From Campylobacterales bacterium (GTDB lineage: Bacteria > Campylobacterota > Campylobacteria > Campylobacterales > Sulfurovaceae), in contig JACXUM010000012.1 in NCBI GenBank assembly GCA_014763895.1, positions 1 to 53,481 of the forward strand: a stretch of DNA of 53,481 nucleotides. Direction: 5' to 3'. The notes under the pieces are model-generated. The model made no database searches. It saw only the letters and a list, made by a program, of their open reading frames with translations, and had not been told where the DNA came from. Made by a program: the position numbers and the translations under genes. Numbering within the stretch: the first letter of the stretch is position 1; every line of letters starts with the position of its first letter. Of this stretch, positions 10,997 to 46,635 are shown piece after piece.

Positions 10997-11983
10997 CTAT
11001 TTTTGAAAATGGATCATTTTAAATCTATCCCCCATCATGGTCGGGGATAGCAATGTTTTGATCTTGTCTGCCTCTCTTGCATACACAGATTGTGTTGTAT
11101 TTTTTACGAACCGTTCCAAGATTTCTATGATGCCAAAACGAACAAGTGCCCTAGCCTGTGTTTCATAACCGGCCTCTTTGAAACCTGCTGCTTTGAAGGC
11201 ATCAGAAACATGTGCGAAATTGACATCATAAGTAATATCATCTTTTTGAAAACTATCAGCTAAATTCAAACTCTGATCAAACAGCGGAAAGGTCTCATGT
11301 TTTTTATAAACACGGATGGAAAAATCATTTCTTACATATTTTTCTCCATAATCAAACGAAACAAAATCACAATGCTCTATCCCCTCAGCCATCGCTTTTG
11401 CAAAAGCTTCATATCCTACCGCAATCTCACCCTGTGTTAGATAATGCTTTTTTGCCCATTTTAGTGTCTCTTTTGGCGCTTCTTCCCAAGAGATGTGATG
11501 ATCTTCAATAACCGCTATTTTCTCACCCTTAAGCAGTTCGCATGGGAATGCATCAAATATCTCATTGGCTACGACAAACGCATACGGTACTTTGACCTCA
11601 TCGATATCGTTAAAATGAGTGATTGTCACATCGTCCCCGAAACGTTCTTTGATATAAACGTTTTGTGCATCTCTTAGGGTCGGCTGTCGTTCAACGATAC
11701 CAAAATGCAAGGTCTCTATCAATGTCGGATCACAAGTATAGAGCCATTGGATCATATCGCAGATCAGGTATCCCTGGTGAGCGCCAACTTCGATGAGCCA
11801 ACCGTTACGATCCGCTTTACCCTCAGTGATCAATCTATAAAAATAATTTGCAACGCTTGCACCAAAAAAACGGCTGGTACTCACAGCCGTATAAAAATCG
11901 CCGCTTTTCCCTATGGCCTTGAAGTTTTTATAATATCCATTTTCTCCATAAAGCCACTCATTCATATAGCTGCTAAAGAGCAT
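10997..11983 (-). CDS. MidA/NDUFAF7-type SAM-dependent methyltransferase
   Basis: A 328-residue member of the DUF185/COG1565 methyltransferase family. Family features are the N-terminal ENGYYKN...GKSGDFYTAV segment, the SAM-binding LIEVGAHQGYL, and VVANEIFDAFPCE. In eukaryotes the relative NDUFAF7 methylates an arginine of complex I; the bacterial substrate is generally unknown. It overlaps the 3' end of the TolC-like gene by 11 bases, so it is translated at the end of the adaptor, oxidoreductase, argD, TolC operon. Confidence 0.82.
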   Translation of the reverse strand: MLFSSYMNEWLYGENGYYKNFKAIGKSGDFYTAVSTSRFFGASVANYFYRLITEGKADRNGWLIEVGAHQGYLICDMIQWLYTCDPTLIETLHFGIVERQPTLRDAQNVYIKERFGDDVTITHFNDIDEVKVPYAFVVANEIFDAFPCELLKGEKIAVIEDHHISWEEAPKETLKWAKKHYLTQGEIAVGYEAFAKAMAEGIEHCDFVSFDYGEKYVRNDFSIRVYKKHETFPLFDQSLNLADSFQKDDITYDVNFAHVSDAFKAAGFKEAGYETQARALVRFGIIEILERFVKNTTQSVYAREADKIKTLLSPTMMGDRFKMIHFQK

Positions 11984-13196
11984 CCGCCACCTTTGTGTAC
12001 AGCTTTAACAGCTCAATCTGCTTATCAATCATATAGATCTTTTGATCAAGCCTTTTGATCTCCAGGGAATTCTGCATCATTGCCGTATCATACGTTGTTT
12101 TCTCACCGGCTTTTTGCAAATTTTTTGTCACACGATAAAGATTTTGATAGAGTTTTTCATCTTTTTGCGCCAGCTGTATCTTTTTATCGATAATGTTAAG
12201 GTTTTGATTCACAAGCCTATACTCTTCATCGACCGTATCCTGGCGATCGATCACCTCGGTAGCAGCTTTAAGATGCGCCACCTTGCTTGCTTCGATATCA
12301 CTGAGAGAATTGATATCGATCGGCATCGAGATGGTAAATCCATAGGTAGAATACTGCTCTTTAAGCAAAGGATTTTGAAAAAGAGGATTGAGATCGCCAT
12401 CGGTATATCGCCCCTGTAAAGAAACTGTAGGAAGGTATTTTGTCCATGTCATTTTGGCATTATAATTGGCTTCCTTCGCACGCAATCTTTCTCTTGCCAG
12501 TTCAAGATTCGATCCTTGGTACTCTTTTGCAGAAATCAGTCTCAGTGTAGGAAGCTTCAAAGTTTCAGGGTCCTTGTCACTAAGTAGAGTAAAGTTCTGT
12601 CTGGCTTGGGCTAAAGAGACCTCCATTTCCAAAAGAGAGGTCTCGTCTAAGTTCTTTTGTAGCAAAGCCTGATCTAAAAAGCTGCTATCCAAAAGACCCG
12701 CATCATAACTCTCCTGCTTAAGTTTGATATCGATCGCATCGTTTTTGATCAGATACTTTAACTTCTGCTGTTGAAGTTTAAGTTTTTTCATCGTAAAAAG
12801 CAGATTCACCGCATTGCCTATCATCTGGCGTTTTTGCAGCAGTATATCGGCTTCGTTAGCATCGTGAAAGGCTTTGGCATACTTGATCGCAAAATAGATA
12901 CCGCCGGATTTAAAGATAGGCTGGTCGATCCCGATCGTGAAACTGCCTGTCCCTATCCGCCCGCTTTTAAATTGTTCCGTATAGGTCTTGCTATATTGAA
13001 CCGTGACCGGATTGATCCAGCTTTTACTCAGCTTATCATACTCCAGGTCATTGCTCTGAAACTGATAGTCAAATATGGCTGTTTTGTTATTGGAGAGAAT
13101 ATCGCTCAACTCATCTGCAAACAGCCATGACGCTGCTGATAGACTACAAAGAAGCAAGAACTTTTTCAAAACGTTTAAACCCTTCATCGATTTCAT
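11973..13196 (-). CDS. TolC-family outer membrane channel protein
   Basis: A 407-residue outer membrane efflux protein with a signal peptide (ending near LFADE) and the long helical repeats of TolC proteins; heptad-rich stretches lie at about 110-190 and 300-390. No inner-membrane pump gene is adjacent, but a HlyD-like adaptor starts the same operon (16912). The start is uncertain. ATGs at 13196 and 13187 lack a ribosome binding site, whereas a TTG at 13169 (giving MKKFLLLCSL) has GAAGGG 10 bases upstream and may be the true start. The 5' end overlaps argD. Confidence 0.82.
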   Translation of the reverse strand: MKSMKGLNVLKKFLLLCSLSAASWLFADELSDILSNNKTAIFDYQFQSNDLEYDKLSKSWINPVTVQYSKTYTEQFKSGRIGTGSFTIGIDQPIFKSGGIYFAIKYAKAFHDANEADILLQKRQMIGNAVNLLFTMKKLKLQQQKLKYLIKNDAIDIKLKQESYDAGLLDSSFLDQALLQKNLDETSLLEMEVSLAQARQNFTLLSDKDPETLKLPTLRLISAKEYQGSNLELARERLRAKEANYNAKMTWTKYLPTVSLQGRYTDGDLNPLFQNPLLKEQYSTYGFTISMPIDINSLSDIEASKVAHLKAATEVIDRQDTVDEEYRLVNQNLNIIDKKIQLAQKDEKLYQNLYRVTKNLQKAGEKTTYDTAMMQNSLEIKRLDQKIYMIDKQIELLKLYTKVADAL

Positions 13197-25468: not shown

Positions 25469-27640
25469 TTAGATAGCGTCTATAATGCTGTTCAATGTTT
25501 GAGAAGGTCTCATTGCAGCTTCTGCTTTCGCATTATTTGGATGATAGTACCCACCGATATCTTGCGGTTTACCTTCTACTGCCATCAACTCTTCCATGAT
25601 CTTCGCTTCGTTCTCTTCAAGTGCTTTGGCTACCGCTGCAAATTTAGCTGCAAGCTCTGCATTATCAGAAGCTGCAAGTGCTCTCGCCCAGTACTGTGCT
25701 ACATAGAAGTGAGATGCTTTGTTGTCCGGTTCACCAGCGGCTCTTCCCGGTGCTTTGTTGTTATCGAGGTAAGCCTGATTGGCAACGTCAAGAGCAGCAG
25801 TTACAGCAGCAAGGTTTGCATTCGGATGTTTTTGCTCGATATATCTTAGTGATTCCGCTAGCGCCAAGAACTCACCTAGTGAATCCCATCTAAGATGACC
25901 CTCTGCAAGGAATTGATCTACGTGCTTAGGCGCTGATCCACCTGCACCTGTTTCGAACAATCCGCCGCCAGCAAGCAATGGAACGATAGAGAGCATTTTT
26001 GCTGATGTTCCAAGTTCAAGGATTGGGAAGAGGTCAGTGAGGTAATCTCTAAGAACGTTACCCGTTACAGAAATCGTATCTTCTCCAGCTCTTATTCTTT
26101 TGAGTGAGTATGCCATCGCATCTTCTGGCGCAAGGATCTCGATAGTTAAACCAGTTGTATCATGATCTTGTAGGTAAGTGTTTACTTTTTTGATCATCTG
26201 TGCATCGTGTGCTCTGTTTGCATCCAACCAGAATACTGCTGGAGTACCTGCAAGTCTAGCTCTTTCAACCGCAAGTCTAACCCAGTCTTTGATCGGAGTA
26301 TCTTTTGTGCGAGACATTCTCCAGATATCACCTGCTTCAACATCAAAACTCATAAGCTCTGTACCATCTTGCGCTGTTACAGTTACTTTACCTGCTTCAC
26401 TCATCTCAAATGTAGTTGGGTGTGAGCCGTATTCTTCTGCTTTTTGTGCCATAAGTCCAACGTTTGATACTGACCCCATAGTTGTCACATCAAATTGACC
26501 ATTTTTAACACAGTCCTCAACGATCTCTTTATACATCGTTGCATAACATCTATCAGGAATAACAGAAACACACTCTTCTGCTTTTCCATCTTTGTTCCAC
26601 ATCTTACCACCATCTCTTACCACAACTGGCATAGAAGCATCGATGATAACATCATTTGAAGCGTGAAGGTTGGTAATACCTTTGTCTGAATCAACCATAG
26701 CGATATTTGGGTGACCGGCATCTACTACTGCTTTGATCGCTGCAAGGATCTCCTCTTTTTTGTCAGAGTTAGCAAGTTTTTTCTCAAGATCACTTAGACC
26801 CAAGTTAGGGTTCACGCCAAGTGCTTTAAACTCCTCTGCATATTTGTTAAATACATCTGCAAAGAATACTTCAACTGCGTGACCAAACATAATTGGATCA
26901 GAGACTTTCATCATCGTTGCCTTCAGGTGAATCGACCACAATACACCGTTTGCTTTTGCATCTTCGATTGATTTTTTAAGGAATGCTCTGAGTGCTTTAA
27001 CAGACATAAATGTACCGTCAAGCACCTCTTTATCTTTTGCATCAATCTCTTTAAGTGTCTTACCATTAAGTGCGATTGTTACTTTTTGGTCGCCATTTAC
27101 AACTACTGCTTGCTCATGTCCATAGAAGTCGCCATGATCCATGTGTGCAACATACGCTTTTGAGTTTTCATTAAATGCTCTAAGTTTATGCGGATGGGCT
27201 TTAGCAAAGTTTTTGACCGCAACTGCTGCCCTTCTATCTGAGTTACCCTCTCTAAGCACCGGGTTAACCGCTGAACCAAGACAAGTATTGTACTTCTCTC
27301 TGATCGCTTTTTCTTCATCAGTCTGCGGGTTTTCAGGAAAGTTAGGGATATCGTATCCTTGACCTTGAAGTTCTGCGATACACTCTTTAAGCTGACCAAC
27401 AGATGCTGAAATATTTGGAAGTTTGATAATGTTGCCTTCAGGCTGAAGTACAACCTCTCCCAATTTAGCTAGTTCATCCTCAGCTTTGCCCATAGCTGCA
27501 AGTACACGTCCAGCCAGCGAGATGTCACTTTGTTCAAGTTCTACACCGCCGGCAGCACAGAATTTTGCTGCGATTGGAAAGAAAGAGTAAGTTGCCAAAG
27601 CTGGGGCTTCGTCAATTTTTGACCAAATAATTTTTGACAT
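25469..27640 (-). CDS. icd: Monomeric NADP-dependent isocitrate dehydrogenase
   Basis: Large monomeric IDH of 723 residues, the type in which one chain replaces the usual homodimer. It begins MSKIIWSKIDEAPALATYSFFPI, typical of the family. Internal blocks include SDRRAAVAVKNFAKAHPH and FWLDANRAHDAQMI. It converts isocitrate and 2-oxoglutarate; NADP is the usual cofactor for this type. It is the first gene of the icd-mdh-fumC-sucCD-oorDABC block, and Campylobacter jejuni also uses the monomeric form next to mdh. An AAGGA lies in front of the ATG. Confidence 0.96.
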   Translation of the reverse strand: MSKIIWSKIDEAPALATYSFFPIAAKFCAAGGVELEQSDISLAGRVLAAMGKAEDELAKLGEVVLQPEGNIIKLPNISASVGQLKECIAELQGQGYDIPNFPENPQTDEEKAIREKYNTCLGSAVNPVLREGNSDRRAAVAVKNFAKAHPHKLRAFNENSKAYVAHMDHGDFYGHEQAVVVNGDQKVTIALNGKTLKEIDAKDKEVLDGTFMSVKALRAFLKKSIEDAKANGVLWSIHLKATMMKVSDPIMFGHAVEVFFADVFNKYAEEFKALGVNPNLGLSDLEKKLANSDKKEEILAAIKAVVDAGHPNIAMVDSDKGITNLHASNDVIIDASMPVVVRDGGKMWNKDGKAEECVSVIPDRCYATMYKEIVEDCVKNGQFDVTTMGSVSNVGLMAQKAEEYGSHPTTFEMSEAGKVTVTAQDGTELMSFDVEAGDIWRMSRTKDTPIKDWVRLAVERARLAGTPAVFWLDANRAHDAQMIKKVNTYLQDHDTTGLTIEILAPEDAMAYSLKRIRAGEDTISVTGNVLRDYLTDLFPILELGTSAKMLSIVPLLAGGGLFETGAGGSAPKHVDQFLAEGHLRWDSLGEFLALAESLRYIEQKHPNANLAAVTAALDVANQAYLDNNKAPGRAAGEPDNKASHFYVAQYWARALAASDNAELAAKFAAVAKALEENEAKIMEELMAVEGKPQDIGGYYHPNNAKAEAAMRPSQTLNSIIDAI

Positions 27641-37567: not shown

Positions 37568-37616
37568 ATATCAACAGATCACTATAAACTTTCAATACTT
37601 TTTCAAAAAGATCCAT

Positions 37617-37640
37617 ATCCCACCTTTTCTGGAGTGGGAT
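37617..37640 (-). terminator. Candidate terminator of the RND efflux operon
   Basis: Stem atcccac / gtgggat with a 10-base loop lies 18 bases past the stop of the last RND gene. On the minus strand it is followed by atggatcttttt, so the T-run is slightly displaced. Confidence 0.45.
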
Positions 37641-37658
37641 AAGATTAAAAATGTAGAT

Positions 37659-39383
37659 TTATTTGGTAATTGAAATATTATTGATATTGCAATGATCGGA
37701 CGGTTTGAAATCCATTGCTTTTGCATTGTCCATCAAAACAGGTACAAAAAGCAATGAAACGAACACTGCAGCCACTGTTCCTGAGATCAACGCTACTCCC
37801 AGCCCCCCAAAAACAGGGTCGCTTGCAAGCAAAGCCGAGCCAAGGATGATCGCTACAGCTGTCAATGCGATCGGTTTAGCCCTTGTCGCTGTCGCCACTG
37901 CGATCGCCCGTCGTTTTGGCAAGCCGTGACACTCCATCAAGGCTTTGGCAAAATCAATCAAAAGAAGTGAGTTTCTCGAACTGATACCCATCAAGGCAAT
38001 GAAACCGATCAAGGACGTTGCTGTCAGGAAAAATGTCTCCGAAGTAAACCAGTTGGCTACCCAGTGCCCGACAATAACCCCGATCAATGAGAGGAACGAT
38101 CCCAAAAGAATGATCCCGCTAAGTACAAAGCTCTTATAGTACACAACCAAAAGCAGGAAGATGAGAAGCAACGCCGCAATGAAAGCACCACCAAGATCCC
38201 TAAAGGTATCCAACGTTACTTTCATCTCTCCATCCCATCTTAGAAGGAATTTCTCGCCCGTTTTTTTATCACTTAAATGCAGATCAAACATATAGGTTGA
38301 CATTCCCGGTTCTTTTTCTACTTCATACTCTTTGGAGAAATACTCAATGATTTGGCTTCTTGCATCAAGCAGAGGATAGACTTGGGAAACCATATCCGTT
38401 TCTGCGATTACGTTAGCCATACGGCTAAGATCTTTATGCATAATCATCGGGCTGGAATCTGTTTTTCTGATCGTCACTACTTCACTTAGCGGCACAAGCA
38501 TCCCCTCCATATTCATCAAGTTTAAAGAGGAAAGTTTGCTTTGAAGGACCTCTTGTTCACTTGATTTTAACTGTTTGCTCTCTTTATCTAAAGTCAAATA
38601 TATAGGTATCTGATCAGGGAAATCTTTTGAATTTTTATGTGCAACGACCATCCCTTCGAATGCCAGATACAGGATATTATTCACCTGTTCCACACTCAAA
38701 CCGCTTCTGGCGATTTTCTCTTTGTCCGGTACCAGTTCATATTTGCTGTAGATTTCATCCTGCATCACATCAACATCCACCAATCCCTCTGTTTTCGACA
38801 AAATGGCAGCTACTGCATTGGATAGCTCTCTGATCTTTGCAGAATCATTGCCATGCACTTCGACCACGATCGATGCCATTGTAGGAGGACCTGCAGGCTG
38901 CTCGATAAACTTGATACTCGTCCCGGACACAATATTGCTACAAGATTTTTGAACAATAGGTCTAAGACGCTTTGTCATCAAGAATGAGGGTTCATCCCTT
39001 TCATGTTTATCGGTCAAATTCACTGCGATCTCTGCAACATCTTCGGTACGTTTCATACTCGCACCTTTCACAAGCCCGGCATAGTCAAGCGGTATTCCCT
39101 GCCCTAAGAAAAGCTCGAGATTCATCACCTCTCTCTCTTTTTCAAGGAAACCGATCACACAATCACTGACTTGCTTGGTTTGTTCAATGGAACTGCCTGT
39201 CGGAGTATCGATATAGATAGAAAAGGTATTGTCACTTTTCCCGGGAAGCATTTTTGCCAAAACAAGCTGTGTTGGGAACATGAGCAATGAACCAAAAAAT
39301 GCCAAAGCTGTCAGTAAAATCACCTTTTTCTTCTTAGCTTTGTTATCTAATATCTTATAGATAAATTCTTCCAGTCGTTTCAT
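37659..39383 (-). CDS. RND efflux pump, C-terminal half (separate polypeptide)
   Basis: A 574-residue protein equal to the second half of an AcrB-like RND pump: TM7 near 20-43, a large periplasmic porter part (about 45-390) and TM8-TM12 (about 395-555). The TM10 region reads SSRNSLLLIDFAK, so Arg470 stands where AcrB has the proton-relay Lys940. Its ATG overlaps the stop of the N-terminal half by one base (TGATG), and AAAAGGGG lies seven bases upstream, so it has its own good ribosome binding site. It would assemble with the preceding protein into one transporter. Confidence 0.88.
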   Translation of the reverse strand: MKRLEEFIYKILDNKAKKKKVILLTALAFFGSLLMFPTQLVLAKMLPGKSDNTFSIYIDTPTGSSIEQTKQVSDCVIGFLEKEREVMNLELFLGQGIPLDYAGLVKGASMKRTEDVAEIAVNLTDKHERDEPSFLMTKRLRPIVQKSCSNIVSGTSIKFIEQPAGPPTMASIVVEVHGNDSAKIRELSNAVAAILSKTEGLVDVDVMQDEIYSKYELVPDKEKIARSGLSVEQVNNILYLAFEGMVVAHKNSKDFPDQIPIYLTLDKESKQLKSSEQEVLQSKLSSLNLMNMEGMLVPLSEVVTIRKTDSSPMIMHKDLSRMANVIAETDMVSQVYPLLDARSQIIEYFSKEYEVEKEPGMSTYMFDLHLSDKKTGEKFLLRWDGEMKVTLDTFRDLGGAFIAALLLIFLLLVVYYKSFVLSGIILLGSFLSLIGVIVGHWVANWFTSETFFLTATSLIGFIALMGISSRNSLLLIDFAKALMECHGLPKRRAIAVATATRAKPIALTAVAIILGSALLASDPVFGGLGVALISGTVAAVFVSLLFVPVLMDNAKAMDFKPSDHCNINNISITK

Positions 39384-41008
39384 CAGTATTCCCCTTTTTG
39401 AACATCATGATGGTGATGATGTGGATGCTTCGGTTTTTTAAGGAGTTTCAAACTCAGATACGGTGTAAAGATATAGGCAACGACAAGAGATGCCAACAAT
39501 GCAACCGGGACATTATACGGAATCGGCTGCATGAATGATCCCATCATCCCACCAACGAACGCCATAGGTACCATTGTCATGATGATCGCCAATGTTGCAA
39601 CGTTTGTCGGCGCACCGATCTCATCGGTTGCTTCGACAAGCAGTTCATCCATCTCTTTGTTTTCCCCTCCATGGCTATGGAGATGCCTATGGATGTTTTC
39701 GATCACAATGATCGCCGCATCCACCAATAGACCTAAAGAGAGAAGAAAAGCAAAGAGCGTGATCCTATTGATCGTCTGGCCTGATAGATATGCCACAAAA
39801 AGCGTAATCGCCAAAATCGCCGGAACGGTAAAAGTAACAATGATAGACTCCCTCCAGCCCAGTGCAAACACAAGCATAAAGGCTATGATAAAGATCGTAA
39901 TGATCAAGTGGCTCATCAGCTCATTAACCGCTTCGTTCGCACGATGTCCATAGTTCCTTGTCACCAGATACCCGATCCCTGCATCGGCAAACTCTTTTTC
40001 ATGCGCTTTAAGCACTTTCATGACATCATCTGCAACAAAAACCGCATTCGTTCCTGCAAGTTTTGCCACCGTCAGCGTGATCTGTTTTGTCAGCGGAGAC
40101 ATTTTTGTCTGCTCTACATCGTTTTTATACTGGATCTGAGCATCCTGGAAATTTTGAATATCAATGCCATTGGTGACGGTTGCAACATCTTTGAGATAGA
40201 TCGGTGATCCCATATATTGTGCCACGATCACATTGCCAACATCTTTAACACTTTCGATGGCATTCTCAACACCAAAGATAACCAATTTCTTATCCTGTGT
40301 TCTTCCTTTGACATCAGGAACATCCACCGCAACAGATTGTACCGCTTTCATAATCTGTCCCAAAGAGAGATTATACGCAGCAAGTTTTCCCATATCGACT
40401 TCTACATTATACTGAGCTTTATGGGCACCCTTGAGTGTAGTTTTCGCCACGTTGTCTATGGCATTGAGCTTTTGCTGGATTTCTCTAACTTTATTAAAGA
40501 GCATAACATCATTAACACTGGATCCCTCTTTTGGATAAAAAGCAACCGTAACGATAGGAATATCGATATCGATATCAAACGGCTTGATCAGAGGCTGCAT
40601 CACACCTTTTGGCATCTCATCCATATTCTGCATCACTTTGTCATAGAGTTTGAGGTTCGAATCTTCCCTATTTTCACCAATATAGTACATCACATTGACA
40701 ATCCCTACGTTATCCATTGCCATACCGTAAATATGCTCGATCCCTCTGACTTCTCTTAGTTTTCTTTCCAAAGGATTGATAATGATATTTTCGATCTCTT
40801 TGGGGGAAGCGCCGGGCATAGCGATAATCACAGCTCCTCCTGAAATTGCGATCTGCGGGTCTTCTTCTCTTGGCATCACATTCAGTGCCAGATACCCCAT
40901 CATGAGTAAAAAAACACCCAATACCGCAGTTAAAGGATTACGTAAAAATCCTTTTGCCAATTTACCTGCCACATCGGTGACTTGATATTCGTTTTTTTTC
41001 TCCATCAT
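39383..41008 (-). CDS. RND efflux pump, N-terminal half (separate polypeptide)
   Basis: A 541-residue protein equal to the first half of an RND pump: TM1 near 26-44, the periplasmic porter part (about 45-360) and TM2-TM6 (about 365-522). TM4 reads GLLVDAAIIVIEN, a single Asp430 followed by Ala431. Drug pumps such as AcrB have two Asp; metal pumps such as CusA have the VDAA form. A His-rich loop (HRHLHSHG, 440-447) follows TM4, and the C-terminus carries His528 and His530-534. It ends exactly in the cytoplasmic loop before TM7. It follows the adaptor gene by five bases. The substrate is unknown; metal is a guess. Confidence 0.88.
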   Translation of the reverse strand: MMEKKNEYQVTDVAGKLAKGFLRNPLTAVLGVFLLMMGYLALNVMPREEDPQIAISGGAVIIAMPGASPKEIENIIINPLERKLREVRGIEHIYGMAMDNVGIVNVMYYIGENREDSNLKLYDKVMQNMDEMPKGVMQPLIKPFDIDIDIPIVTVAFYPKEGSSVNDVMLFNKVREIQQKLNAIDNVAKTTLKGAHKAQYNVEVDMGKLAAYNLSLGQIMKAVQSVAVDVPDVKGRTQDKKLVIFGVENAIESVKDVGNVIVAQYMGSPIYLKDVATVTNGIDIQNFQDAQIQYKNDVEQTKMSPLTKQITLTVAKLAGTNAVFVADDVMKVLKAHEKEFADAGIGYLVTRNYGHRANEAVNELMSHLIITIFIIAFMLVFALGWRESIIVTFTVPAILAITLFVAYLSGQTINRITLFAFLLSLGLLVDAAIIVIENIHRHLHSHGGENKEMDELLVEATDEIGAPTNVATLAIIMTMVPMAFVGGMMGSFMQPIPYNVPVALLASLVVAYIFTPYLSLKLLKKPKHPHHHHHDVQKGEY

Positions 41009-41013
41009 TTATC

Positions 41014-41814
41014 CTAACTGTTGATGATCACTTTCGCATACATTCCTGGATAAACAGGTATATCCTGGTTGTCAAATGTCATCTTGATCGTAAATTTATG
41101 TGTCATCGGATTTGAACTTGGAATGATTGAACTGATCTTTCCTGTGGTTTTCAATCCTATCGAAGGAATTTCTATCGAAACTTCTTTGCCAATTTCTATG
41201 TTTTTCAGATCCGACTCACTGATCTCTGCAAGGATCTTCAGCCTGCTAAGATCGGTCAGTACCACTGCCGGCATACCCGGGATTGCCATTTCACCTTCAT
41301 TGACTTTCTTTGCTACGATAACACCATCATTAGGCGCCTTAACTTTTAAGTAGTTGTATTGGTTCAGCACTTCTTCTTTTTTTGCCAATGCCTGATTGAC
41401 CTGCTCTTTTGCGATATCGACCATGTCTTTGAGATTTTTTGCAGCAAGCTGCAGTGTTTCAAGCTCATATTTTGAAACCATTTTCTTTTGATAAAGACGT
41501 TCATGTCTTTGCAGATTGATCAGTACATTGTTGTATTGATTCATATTCATCTGCAAAGCCAATCGTGCCTGAGATATAGCAAGTTCTACCTGTCTTTCTG
41601 CCGCTTCTATCTCTTTAGAGTCGATCTCATAAAGCAGCTGGTCCTTATGAACGATATCTCCTTCTGCTACAGCCATGGTCTTAACATAACCCATATACCG
41701 GCTAGTGATCATTTTTTGATTGTCAGAGATCACACTCCCGCTTAGATTGATCTCCACTGCCCCTAAAGCTGTTGCCGCCAAGGCAAACGTTATTGCTACA
41801 ATGCTTTTTTTCAT
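41014..41814 (-). CDS. RND-type periplasmic adaptor (membrane fusion protein)
   Basis: A 266-residue adaptor with a signal peptide (about 1-18, ending LGAVE), a lipoyl half (YVKTMAVAEGDIVHKDQLLYEID), an alpha-helical hairpin (about 75-145), the second lipoyl half (YLKVKAPNDGVIVAKKVNEGE) and a beta-barrel (about 185-266). It lacks a lipobox. Its ATG overlaps the TolC-family gene stop (ATGA), and the split RND pump follows, giving a complete tripartite efflux operon. Confidence 0.9.
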   Translation of the reverse strand: MKKSIVAITFALAATALGAVEINLSGSVISDNQKMITSRYMGYVKTMAVAEGDIVHKDQLLYEIDSKEIEAAERQVELAISQARLALQMNMNQYNNVLINLQRHERLYQKKMVSKYELETLQLAAKNLKDMVDIAKEQVNQALAKKEEVLNQYNYLKVKAPNDGVIVAKKVNEGEMAIPGMPAVVLTDLSRLKILAEISESDLKNIEIGKEVSIEIPSIGLKTTGKISSIIPSSNPMTHKFTIKMTFDNQDIPVYPGMYAKVIINS

Positions 41815-43190
41815 ACATTCCCTCCGTTATTTAAAATACTGTTCAACTCAAAGATTTTGGTATTTCGCTCATTTTCTACCGTCAAAAGTTTTAACAGCAT
41901 TTCAAGCTCTTTTGACTGTTTGATCAAAAGATCCGAAATTGAAACCAATCCTTCCTTATAACGTTCATGGTAGTTTTCATATACTTTTTTTGCAAAAATC
42001 AATTGCTTTTTATAATTGTCAATATCGGCTGATTTGCTCAGAACTTCGGTTTGAAGTTTTTTCACCTGCAACGCAATCCCGTTTTTAGCAAGATCTACCT
42101 GATCATGCACTTTGAGGTAATTGACCTTTGCTCTTTCAAGATTTGCCGCATCAATACCGCCGTTAAAGATATTCCACTTAAACTGGATACCAAAAGTATA
42201 GGCATCTTTGTCCATGAACTCATTCCAAAGAACATTATCAGCACTTCCATACTCAGCAAACGCTCCGATAGTAGGCAGAAAATTTGCTTTTTCCACATTC
42301 ACAGCCATTTCACTGATCTGAAGACCCAAAAGTGCTTTTTGGATATCAATGCTGTTAGCCATCAGCTCCTCTTTGTTCATTTGCGGCATCGGTGCCATCT
42401 CATCTACTTTTTGTATCGAGCTTACTTCTGTATTGAGCAGAAACGAAAGGAATTGATAGGCAAGTTCCCTGTTGAGTTTTGCCTGGTTGAGCATACTGTC
42501 AGCCTCAGCTTTACGCGCCTGGACTTCCAGCACATCGATATTTTGCGCATACCCTTCTTTTTTCATCGATTTAACGACTGATTCCAAACGATTGATGTTT
42601 TGCATAATCTTAGAAAGATTTGTGATATAGTTTTCCACCAAAGAGATATCATAGAATGCTTTTTTGGTTTGGAAAATCTTTTCATTCAAAAGTTTTTGTG
42701 TATCGTACTGGCTCATTTTATATAATGAATCAGTGATGTGCCCGTACTCGGTCAGCTTCCCTCCGGTATAGATAGGGAGCACATAGGATAATTTGGTGAC
42801 ATAATGATTTCTGGCTTCGGGATAATTAAGATCGCCAGGCTGTTTATTTAATAGTGTTCCATCTGTACAATATGAAGGCGGAGTTGGACTTTGACAAGCT
42901 AGGAAATCACTGAAACCAAAATCACCGAAGTCTGCTTCACGGCTTTGCAGTTTGAAACCAAATACATTCCCCGCATCATTGGAACGCATCCCGGTTACCG
43001 TCACGTCAAGCGACCCGAAATTGTGCCCTTTAGCCGCTTTGGCTTCATACATTTTCATCTGTTCTTCAAACTTTGCAATCTTGAGTTCAAGATTGTCTTT
43101 TTTCAGCATATCCAAGGCCTGCTGAAGACTCAAATGTTCCATTCCGGCAAAGAGCGGCAAGGCTATCAGAAACAATAAATATCTTTTCAT
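41811..43190 (-). CDS. TolC-family outer membrane channel of the RND operon
   Basis: A 459-residue outer membrane efflux protein with a signal peptide (about 1-16, LPLFAGMEHL) and two structural repeats typical of TolC. An insert with two cysteines (SDFLACQSPTPPSYC, about 96-110) could be disulfide-bonded in the outer-membrane loops. It heads the efflux operon and has its own promoter. No regulator gene is adjacent. Confidence 0.9.
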   Translation of the reverse strand: MKRYLLFLIALPLFAGMEHLSLQQALDMLKKDNLELKIAKFEEQMKMYEAKAAKGHNFGSLDVTVTGMRSNDAGNVFGFKLQSREADFGDFGFSDFLACQSPTPPSYCTDGTLLNKQPGDLNYPEARNHYVTKLSYVLPIYTGGKLTEYGHITDSLYKMSQYDTQKLLNEKIFQTKKAFYDISLVENYITNLSKIMQNINRLESVVKSMKKEGYAQNIDVLEVQARKAEADSMLNQAKLNRELAYQFLSFLLNTEVSSIQKVDEMAPMPQMNKEELMANSIDIQKALLGLQISEMAVNVEKANFLPTIGAFAEYGSADNVLWNEFMDKDAYTFGIQFKWNIFNGGIDAANLERAKVNYLKVHDQVDLAKNGIALQVKKLQTEVLSKSADIDNYKKQLIFAKKVYENYHERYKEGLVSISDLLIKQSKELEMLLKLLTVENERNTKIFELNSILNNGGNV

Positions 43191-43224: not shown

Positions 43225-43360
43225 GCTAAACAAAACTATTTTTTCACAAACATATTAAAAACACTGTTGTTAGATTAAGAGAGGAGATTATAGCGAAGAA
43301 TATCTATTTTGTTAATTAAAAGTACTGATAATTATAAGTATAGTATATAGATGCAAGATA

Positions 43361-43381: not shown

Positions 43382-44971
43382 TTACAGTGTTGCATGACTC
43401 ACACTGATACACGCTTTGAGAGCTGCGAGTTCTTCCAAAACTTTTTTGCTGATCTTGCCATCAACTTTTACAACGGCAAGTGCCTGCTTCCTGGTATCAC
43501 GGCCCAGTCTGAAGTCAGCGATGTTCAAATCATTTTCAGCCATGATCCTGCCTACATCACCGATCACGCCCGGAGTATCGGTATTTCTAAAGAAGATCAT
43601 GGTACCTTTTGGCTCTACATCCAGATCGTACTCATCGATCTCTACGATACGCTGAACAGTCCCGTCAAATACAGTACCAGAGATACTGATCGTACTTTTA
43701 TCTGTTGTCAGTTTGATCATGACAAGGTTCGTAAATCCGCTTGTATTCGGTTTAGCCTCTTTAGAGATAGTGATCCCTCTTTCAGCTGCAACGAATTCTG
43801 CATTCACATAATTGACCTGATCAGCCAACGATTCAGTCATCACTCCGACGGTAGCGAATGTACCAAGGGATTCAATGTATTCAGAGATTTCGCCCTTGGC
43901 GATCACCTTGATCGATTTAACTGCACTTTTCGTTACCTGCGCAGAAAGATGACCCATTTTTTGGATCAACTCAAGATACGGTCTGACATATTCAGGAAGC
44001 TCATTTTCTCTGATCGGCAGGTTCAAGGCATTTGGATAGGCGACCCCTTTTGCCGATGCAATGGCATTTTCTGCTGCCTGAATAGCAATATTCTCTTGAG
44101 ATTCTTTCGTATTGGCACCCAAGTGAGGCGTAACCGTTACATTGTTCAGATCCAACAACGGATGATCGATGGCCGGTTCTTTGTTAAATACATCGATCCC
44201 CGCCATAGCGATCTTACCTGACTTGAGACCTTCCAGCAATGCAGTTTCATCATAGAGACCACCTCTTGCACAGTTGATCAGGATCACACCGTCTCTCATT
44301 TTAGCAATCTCATCTTTACCGATCATTCCAATCGTCTCTTCTGTTTTTGGAGTATGGATGGTAATGATATCGCAGGCAAGTATATCATTGAAATTTGTAG
44401 TATAGGCGATATCTTCATTCGTTGCTTTTGACGGATCGATATAAGGATCGTATGTAATGACATCCATCTCAAAAGCTTTTGCTCTTTTACCTACACGTGA
44501 GCCGATATTACCAAATCCGATAATACCAAGCTTCTTTCCTTTGAGTTCAGTTCCGTACCAATCTTGTCTTCGCCATACACGGTCAAGTTTTAGATTGTTA
44601 TGGGCATACGGGAAAGTTCTTACACATGAAAGCATATGTGTCATAGTCAGCTCTACTGCAGCGATCGTGTTCGCCGTAGGAACGTTCATCACAACGATCC
44701 CTCTTTTACTGCATCCGTCAATGTCAACGTTATCTACACCGACACCTGCTCTCACTACTGCTTTTAGTTTCGTTGCATGAGTAAGGAAAAACTCATCTAC
44801 ATCCGTTGAAGAACGGGTGATCGCTACATCGGCATTTGGCAGGATATCTGTTACCAGTTTGTCTTTGGGCTCATCAGCCGCATTGATCATCACAATGTCG
44901 GCATCCGAGTTCAAAATATCCAATCCTTTTTGATGGATATGGTCACAAACAACTATAGTAATCTTTGACAT
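43382..44971 (-). CDS. serA: D-3-phosphoglycerate dehydrogenase
   Basis: First enzyme of serine biosynthesis, oxidising 3-phosphoglycerate with NAD. The 529 residues are of the long type: catalytic and nucleotide-binding domains (LGIIGFGNIGSRVGKRAKAF; RGGLYDETALLEGLKSG; HLGANTKESQ), an intervening domain (about 320-450) and a C-terminal ACT domain (MIFFRNTDTPGVIGDVGRIMAEN) for serine feedback. It follows rpsA by 11 bases, as the last gene of the pheS operon. Confidence 0.95.
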   Translation of the reverse strand: MSKITIVVCDHIHQKGLDILNSDADIVMINAADEPKDKLVTDILPNADVAITRSSTDVDEFFLTHATKLKAVVRAGVGVDNVDIDGCSKRGIVVMNVPTANTIAAVELTMTHMLSCVRTFPYAHNNLKLDRVWRRQDWYGTELKGKKLGIIGFGNIGSRVGKRAKAFEMDVITYDPYIDPSKATNEDIAYTTNFNDILACDIITIHTPKTEETIGMIGKDEIAKMRDGVILINCARGGLYDETALLEGLKSGKIAMAGIDVFNKEPAIDHPLLDLNNVTVTPHLGANTKESQENIAIQAAENAIASAKGVAYPNALNLPIRENELPEYVRPYLELIQKMGHLSAQVTKSAVKSIKVIAKGEISEYIESLGTFATVGVMTESLADQVNYVNAEFVAAERGITISKEAKPNTSGFTNLVMIKLTTDKSTISISGTVFDGTVQRIVEIDEYDLDVEPKGTMIFFRNTDTPGVIGDVGRIMAENDLNIADFRLGRDTRKQALAVVKVDGKISKKVLEELAALKACISVSHATL

Positions 44972-44982
44972 TCTACCGCCTC

Positions 44983-46635
44983 TTATTTATTTAATTGATC
45001 TTTCAGTGCATCACCCAAAGTCATGCTGTCATCCTGGTCCATATTGAGTTGCTCTAATGCTTCTCTCTCTTGCTGACGCTCCAATCTTTTTACAGAAACT
45101 CTGATCTTGTCATTGTTCACATCGATAAAGCTGACCACACCCTTGATCTCCTGACCTTTTTCGATCTCCTCAAATTTAAGCGGAGCTAGATCTTCTGTTC
45201 TGATCAAAGCATCCACATTATCTCCGAGAGAAATGAAAACACCGAAATCTTTTTTATCTTTTACAATACCAGTTACAATTGATCCGTTTTTATGCGTTTC
45301 TGCAAATGCTTTAACCGGAGATGATTGCAATGCTTTTTTACTCAATGAGATCTTTCCGTTATCTTTGTCGATCTTAATGATCTTGACTTCGACTTCATCA
45401 CCAACTTTAAGCGCCGATTTTGCGGTTTCCGCTTTATCCCAAGAGATCTCTTGGTTATGAAGCAGCCCTTCTACACTTCCGATCTTAACGAAAGCACCAA
45501 AATCTGTGACGGAAGTCACTTTACCTTTTACTACATCACCTACTTTATGCTCTGATGCGAATGTATCCATTGGCTTAGGAAGAAGGTTTTTCAAACTTAC
45601 TCTCAGTCTTCTTCCCTCTTTATCGATCTCGATCACTTCAACATTGATCTCTTGACCATTGATCAGATAATCTTTAGGGTGTTTCACGTTTTTATCCCAT
45701 GATATCTCTGAAACATGCAAGAATGCTTCAAGGTCTTCTCCAAGGTCAACAAATACTCCATACGGCTCAATATTGCTAACGGTAGCAGTTACCGTATCAC
45801 CTACACCGATAATTGAATCAATATCTGCCCATGGATCAGGATTTGCGTCTTTGATAGAAAGTGAAAGATGTTTTTTCTTTTTATCATAATCCAATGCGAT
45901 AACATGGACTTCATCACCCTCTTGGTAATATTTTGAAGGGTTTACCGGACCTTTATGAGAGATCTGTGAATAGTGTACAAGACCGTCCATTCCACCTACA
46001 TCTACGAACATTCCGTAGCTTGTGATCTTTTTGATGGTTCCTACAACAGGCTCTTTACTTTCAAGTAAGGCAGCAACGATCTCGTCATTTTTGTTCTTGT
46101 CACGCTCGATCAACTCTTTTCTTGAAACAACGACAGAGCCTTTGTCTTTGTCCACTTTTACGATCATCGCTTTAATTTTTTTACCGATAGGATCAGTTTT
46201 TGAAGAAAGGTAAGAAAGTGTGCGGGGCATAAAGAATTCCAAACCATCACAATCTACAACATAGCCGCCTTTATTCTTCTTAGTTACCACACCCTCAATA
46301 ATGTACTCTTTCGAATCATCGTATTCAGAGATAAATTCATTCAAAGCCAATCTGTTCTGCGCCATTGTATGAGAAACTTTACCTCTTCCCAATGTCACAA
46401 CATCGATACTATCACCCTCTTTGAAGATAAGATTACCAGCTTTATCTTTCAATTCGTCAAGCGGAAGTGTTGCATCTCTTCCACCGCCGATATCTACGAT
46501 AGCCTGCTCATCTTTTTCGTCTATTCTTACGATAGTACCTTTTACCAAATCACTTTTTGACTCTGACTTTTTAAACGACTCCTCAAGCATCGCTTCAAAA
46601 TCAACATCTTCTATTTCGATATCTTCGAACTTCAT
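44983..46635 (-). CDS. rpsA: 30S ribosomal protein S1
   Basis: Ribosomal protein S1, 550 residues with about six S1 OB-fold repeats. The clearest begin at GTIKKITSYGMFVDVGGMDGLVH, ATVSNIEPYGVFVDLGEDLEAFLH, KVTSVTDFGAFVKIGSVEGLLH and IVKDKKDFGVFISLGDNVDALI. It binds mRNA and promotes initiation. It lies 57 bases after ispH in the operon; the pairing ispH-rpsA is common in Campylobacterota. Confidence 0.95.
   Translation of the reverse strand: MKFEDIEIEDVDFEAMLEESFKKSESKSDLVKGTIVRIDEKDEQAIVDIGGGRDATLPLDELKDKAGNLIFKEGDSIDVVTLGRGKVSHTMAQNRLALNEFISEYDDSKEYIIEGVVTKKNKGGYVVDCDGLEFFMPRTLSYLSSKTDPIGKKIKAMIVKVDKDKGSVVVSRKELIERDKNKNDEIVAALLESKEPVVGTIKKITSYGMFVDVGGMDGLVHYSQISHKGPVNPSKYYQEGDEVHVIALDYDKKKKHLSLSIKDANPDPWADIDSIIGVGDTVTATVSNIEPYGVFVDLGEDLEAFLHVSEISWDKNVKHPKDYLINGQEINVEVIEIDKEGRRLRVSLKNLLPKPMDTFASEHKVGDVVKGKVTSVTDFGAFVKIGSVEGLLHNQEISWDKAETAKSALKVGDEVEVKIIKIDKDNGKISLSKKALQSSPVKAFAETHKNGSIVTGIVKDKKDFGVFISLGDNVDALIRTEDLAPLKFEEIEKGQEIKGVVSFIDVNNDKIRVSVKRLERQQEREALEQLNMDQDDSMTLGDALKDQLNK

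Follow-up and report, generated by a model that had tools for sequence, protein, structure and literature searches.

In textbooks, pumps of the AcrB type consist of a single chain, and it is in this form that their conformational cycle is studied. In the window, by which we mean the whole analysed stretch of 53,481 nucleotides from a Campylobacterales bacterium, the residues expected of one such chain are encoded by two adjacent genes. Is this arrangement the remnant of a broken gene, or does it encode a pump made of two polypeptides? The two genes close a series of four consecutive genes on the minus strand (tolC, adaptor, N-half, C-half), with the following features:

43287..43315, minus strand: promoter-like site ahead of tolC, TTAACA-17-TATAAT, agreeing with the consensus at 11 of 12 bases
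41811..43190, minus strand: tolC, TolC-type outer membrane channel (459 aa), first gene of the putative operon
41014..41814, minus strand: gene for the periplasmic adaptor, a membrane fusion protein of 266 aa; 4 nt are shared with tolC
39383..41008, minus strand: N-terminal half of the RND permease (541 aa), predicted TM1–TM6 and first periplasmic domain
39386..39436, minus strand: cytoplasmic tail of the N-half, rich in His (HPHHHHHD region) and predicted to be disordered (pLDDT about 44–51 over residues 531–541)
39384..39399, minus strand: Shine-Dalgarno site AAAAAGGGG with 7-nt spacer, inside the end of the N-half gene and serving the C-half
39381..39385, minus strand: TGATG stop/start overlap, read from the sequence
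37659..39383, minus strand: C-terminal half of the RND permease (574 aa), predicted amphipathic helix, TM7–TM12 and second periplasmic domain
37616..37641, minus strand: terminator-like hairpin with T-run directly 3' of the C-half, suggestive by its position only

The product of tolC matched the OEP profile (PF02321, E 8.5e-40), and the adaptor matched both HlyD_D23 (PF16576, E 1.2e-30) and RND_mfp (TIGR01730, 119.7 bits against a cut-off of 94.9). The N-half gene begins 5 nt after the end of the adaptor gene, and the permease genes have an adaptor and an outer membrane channel gene alongside, as in tripartite RND systems. Around split loci, the order tolC-mfp-N-C recurred 60 times and the order serA-tolC-mfp-N-C 68 times. 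The promoter-like site upstream of tolC is at most suggestive, because 23 such sites were found in the region against 19.1 expected; terminator-like hairpins were likewise near chance level (7 found, 5.3 expected). Upstream of the putative operon lie serA (43382–44971) and an rpsA-like gene with S1 domains (44983–46635). The order aroA-rpsA-serA-tolC was also seen in Sulfurovum mangrovi, on a linear record of 395 kb labelled 'plasmid' (L164), which carries housekeeping genes and may therefore be a piece of chromosome. Elsewhere in the window, a second OEP gene (11973–13196) stands between genes for a class-III aminotransferase and a putative methyltransferase, and a near full-length gene for a monomeric isocitrate dehydrogenase (PF03971) occupies 25469–27640.

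Both halves matched the ACR_tran profile (PF00873) far above its cut-off of 28 bits, the N-half with 256 bits over profile positions 5–499 and the C-half with 161 bits over positions 526–820 and a second stretch (846–1016 in the genome search). Together, the predicted halves display the RND fold, with 12 TM helices in two repeats and a periplasmic loop after the first TM of each repeat. The charged proton-relay residues are present as well: the Asp of TM4 (GLLVDAAII in the N-half of the window) was found in 167 of 167 split loci, while the SRN pattern of TM10 and the R..P pattern of TM11 in the C-half were found in 145 and 103 of these, respectively, many loci ending before these positions. 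A single polypeptide of about 1000 residues is lacking; as its place is taken by two genes, we filed the permease as a two-chain variant related to the PF00873 family and not as an ordinary single-chain member. With at best 224.5 and 119.1 bits, the halves stayed below the cut-offs of the NCBIfam HAE-1 subfamilies TIGR00915, NF033617 and NF000282 (940–1250 bits), which apply to full-length chains. Assignment to the heavy-metal RND permeases (CusA/CzcA, TIGR00914) was rejected at 135.6 and 70.3 bits against a cut-off of 701, and an identity with SecDF at 20.6 bits against 500.

To locate the break, each half was modelled as a single chain with AlphaFold2 from 58 N-half and 57 C-half sequences, and structure neighbours of both models were retrieved by VIA-align and also by Foldseek. 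The N-half model (pLDDT 85.2, pTM 0.74) consisted of six long helices and a periplasmic domain; that of the C-half (pLDDT 80.7, pTM 0.66) began with a short helix, followed by six membrane segments and a periplasmic domain. The best VIA-align rows, MdtF and MexY, aligned 461 residues of the N-half (Z 27.2, rmsd 6.0) and 493 residues of the C-half (Z 24.3, rmsd 4.5), respectively. Residues 17–526 of the N-half model fell on AcrB 1–500; in the C-half model, the stretch from residue 1 to about residue 558 fell on AcrB 524–1034. With helices named as in AcrB, the models thus put the break after AcrB residue 500 and before residue 524, in the cytoplasmic loop that links TM6 to the amphipathic helix preceding TM7. 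Alignment and open reading frames agree with the original prediction of an AcrB-like chain split in the TM6–TM7 loop.

At the junction, the two permease genes share the single base 39383, and the DNA reads AAAAAGGGG-AATACTG-ATG. The strong ribosome binding site seven bases from the ATG and the TGATG overlap, both part of the original prediction, could be read directly. Past the junction, both frames are closed by several stops so that no single frame runs through. Comparison with relatives yielded 140 distinct junctions, 135 of which showed a Shine-Dalgarno match (at least 4 nt, 3–13 nt before the C-half start), compared with 14.8% of 6085 internal Met codons. The gap between the halves was –1 nt in 65 and –4 nt in 39 of the 140 junctions (together 104), and the remaining gaps ranged from –38 to +20 nt. 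The C-half is thus probably initiated separately, with its translation coupled to termination of the N-half. Alternatively, ribosomal frameshifting or stop readthrough might yield a single joined chain in vivo. Readthrough is formally possible in 23 genomes (including G079, locus L178), in which the halves lie in register with a stop codon between them. However, the stop at in-frame junctions is TAG in some cases and TAA in others, the frame of one half relative to the other falls into three classes that differ between species (111, 17 and 12 of the 140 junctions), and nearly all junctions carry the Shine-Dalgarno site mentioned above. As the frame relation is variable, programmed frameshifting was dismissed as a general mechanism, and no obvious slippery run was seen at the stop codon of the window when the junction was read by eye. 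We therefore regard recoding of either kind as very unlikely and retain separate initiation of the C-half.

The single chain being the usual state in the family, a sequencing error or a recent pseudogene, with one frame broken by an indel or a stop, also had to be considered. In fact, one relative does carry a broken N-half: in the metagenome locus L112, about 700 nt separate the end of the N frame from the C-half, reflecting decay or an assembly error. For the window, this explanation is contradicted by the multiple closure of both frames past the junction and by the recurrence of the split, with its ribosome binding site, across the junctions compared. Moreover, RefSeq contains split pairs from Sulfurovum mangrovi and from a plasmid of Sulfuricurvum kujiense, each of the two genes being annotated 'efflux RND transporter permease subunit'. 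Conservation across relatives rules out a pseudogene or sequencing error for practical purposes, and we assign this reading a negligible probability.

How widespread the split is was assessed at several levels. All 60 relatives searched gave an RND match of some kind, and the close ones had frames of about 520–610 aa. Both halves were present in 125 of the 126 loci first fetched (L009–L134), many of which stem from the same or related organisms and are hence not independent; L020 had the N-half only. Close relatives that all carry a fused gene, which would have spoken against the original prediction, were looked for and not found (0 of the 125 loci fused). Among L009–L210, 197 loci were classified, 167 as split, 29 as fused and one as broken. 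Of 398 genomes belonging to the order, 275 were matched by the N-half query and 277 by the C-half query, and a comparison of the two match lists by eye placed both halves in 272. Three genomes had only the N-half (G208, G391, G415) and five only the C-half (G201, G212, G217, G238, G243); seven of these eight are less than 90% complete, and the eighth, G415 (96% complete), has a partial N match. No uninterrupted frame above 600 aa occurred among the stronger N-half query matches, those listed for the 398 genomes. A fused homologue used as query matched 55 of these 398 genomes; by the rows read, 32 of them have the fused form (31 long frames of 1012–1238 aa and one contig fragment, G243), and the others are the 23 split genomes with halves in register. 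Both forms coexist in two genomes (G040, G059). Subtraction of the fused-only genomes leaves a split copy in about 246 of the 275 genomes, a derived figure for which not all weak matches were opened. In the contig scan of genomes, the 80 loci kept bear titles of Campylobacterota groups, and one record among them is titled just 'bacterium'.

Several genomes (loci L135–L208) contain two or three split paralogues that are about 57–60% or about 49% identical to the copy in the window, and a second split type in Sulfurovum (L205, L207, L208) adjoins an adaptor gene in opposite orientation. Seven plasmid records were opened out of at least 5000 listed: two from Campylobacterota were split and five from Cyanobacteria or Pseudomonadota fused. 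On the Sulfuricurvum kujiense plasmid pSULKU01 (L165), the split pair lies beside a TetR regulator gene, with divergent adaptor and TolC genes, and may represent a mobile, regulated version.

Substitution rates against ten relatives were low at nonsynonymous sites, with dN of 0.080–0.143 for the N-half and 0.101–0.173 for the C-half, where the locus ends inside the gene in 9 of the 10 comparisons. Finite dS values (2.31–3.49) were obtained in 6 of 10 comparisons for the N-half and 2 of 10 for the C-half, the rest being saturated. These values point to strong purifying selection on both halves. Together with the occurrence in hundreds of genomes, the retained proton-relay residues and the parallel divergence described below, this bears out the expectation that the split is stable and no frameshift wreck.

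To trace the origin of the split, trees were calculated from rows chosen among the 197 classified loci; L140, L149 and L179 were excluded for being short or duplicate. L175 did not conform to the start-codon rule applied and stayed outside the tree rows, although its halves occupy separate frames. The first tree comprised 83 rows, 62 of them split and 21 fused, and all split rows fell on one side of a single branch (SH-aLRT 100). After removal of two distant outgroups from the own genome (L001, L003), the remaining 81 rows (62 split, 19 fused) gave the split clade with 100/100 support and in 200 of 200 bootstrap trees, with one change. The split rows span at least a dozen family codes; the fused rows come from other Campylobacterota families and from plasmid records of Cyanobacteria and Pseudomonadota (L170 being unannotated), and some form long branches, so the order among them is unsure. 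No re-fusion was found among the split-clade sequences examined. Because all split sequences form one clade next to fused relatives, the simplest account that fits these trees would be that a fused gene underwent one old fission in Campylobacterota and that the split form was then duplicated into several paralogues and retained. The branch between split and fused rows is unrooted and does not itself give the direction, so the split state could in principle be ancestral and the fused state the product of one fusion event. However, the outgroup RND permeases (L001 and L003 as well as the plasmid homologues of other phyla) are all fused, which puts the root on the fused side and makes such a fusion highly improbable. 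Some fused copies (L198, L203) adjoin serA, as many split loci do, in keeping with an old shared locus.

Do the two halves form one pump? Across 62 rows (1891 pairs), the pairwise distances of the N-halves were correlated with those of the C-halves (r = 0.953), although the pairs lack independence and common ancestry adds to the value. The conserved charged membrane residues are divided, with the TM4 Asp in the N-half and the TM10 and TM11 Arg in the C-half. BLASTP revealed no meaningful similarity between the halves of the window (E = 5.2 over 22 aa), suggesting that they are specialised and not interchangeable. Each half, predicted to comprise six TM helices along with a periplasmic domain, would by itself have the build of the supposed ancestral half-size RND proteins and might form an oligomer of its own. 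That the halves act as such separate half-pumps is nevertheless improbable to a high degree, given that the proton-relay positions are distributed over both and that these dissimilar proteins are adjacent in the loci compared and diverge in parallel. The claim of the original prediction that the split recreates an ancestral half-pump layout holds for the topology (6 + 6 TM) only: according to the trees, the fission is derived and struck a fused gene, and its products are specialised. Instead, the two genes very probably encode an obligate two-subunit RND permease, with three copies of each half, that would act with the adaptor and TolC from one operon, as judged from sequence comparison and predicted folds. 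According to this model, a gene for a fused AcrB-type permease was divided by fission within the part that encodes the cytoplasmic loop from TM6 to the helix preceding TM7. Both halves would be produced from one tolC-adaptor-N-half-C-half mRNA, the C-half being translated from its own ribosome binding site and coupled through the overlapping stop and start codons. The separately inserted halves would then pair in the membrane to a 12-TM protomer, and three such pairs would assemble into a trimer exporting substrates through the adaptor and TolC. That the trimer is proton-driven is suggested by the TM4 Asp in one half and the TM10/TM11 Arg in the other.

The fission would have left the N-half with a free cytoplasmic tail. 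In 161 split loci, His accounts for 23% of the tail residues after TM6, compared with 1.9% in the rest of the N-half; at least four His stand at the junction in 88 of 167 split loci and fewer in 79. The tail is only partly an invention of the split clade, as fused relatives already contain His after TM6 (12.7% of the 16 residues examined, 29 rows) and many split loci are His-poor. As a hypothesis only, the His-rich tail might bind metal. It is a rather unlikely extension that the fission created a new regulatory layer, in which the freed tail (in some families, a His-rich beginning of the C-half) would bind metal and govern how the halves pair, and that multi-copy genomes pair halves in new combinations. 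If true, combinatorial pairing where two or three split copies coexist would give pumps impossible for a single chain.

The genes are already in databases such as RefSeq, while no description of a split AcrB-type permease was found in the open-licence PMC literature; this is weak evidence of absence. A large RND survey dropped hits shorter than 852 aa, according to the part of its text available (PMC10872679), and such a filter would lose half-proteins like these. Length filters in RND surveys should thus be viewed with caution, as split pumps will be missed. If a dozen or more families run the pump as two chains, covalent linkage of the two repeats would prove dispensable, at a site that the split marks exactly, and such a pump would offer a natural tool for separate labelling or swapping of halves.

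Pumps of the AcrB/AcrD/MexB type (PF00873; HAE-1) share with the permease of the window the fold of each half, the 6 + 6 TM plan, the TM4 Asp, the TM11 Arg and the adaptor and TolC partners, but their known members are one chain of about 1000–1050 residues, whereas the pump described here would consist of two. In contrast to AcrB, its TM4 has a single Asp (VDAAI) and its TM10 an Arg in place of Lys. The nearest homologues are fused relatives from Campylobacterota, Proteobacteria and Cyanobacteria (for example L192 and the plasmid copies of Polaromonas, L167, and Pseudanabaena, L166) with 31–51% identity per half. They share the adaptor, often TolC, and His residues after TM6, but differ by their uninterrupted frames of 1076–1238 aa, and most fused copies in Campylobacterota contain an EPFDIKKTKTY-type linker that the split clade lacks. 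SecD and SecF are half-size proteins of the RND superfamily that are encoded by neighbouring genes and act as a pair, but their role is that of a protein translocation accessory and not efflux. MdtBC and MuxBC are likewise RND pumps built from two different polypeptides; there, however, each polypeptide is a full-length permease that arose by gene duplication and not a half, as stated in the available part of that survey (PMC10872679).
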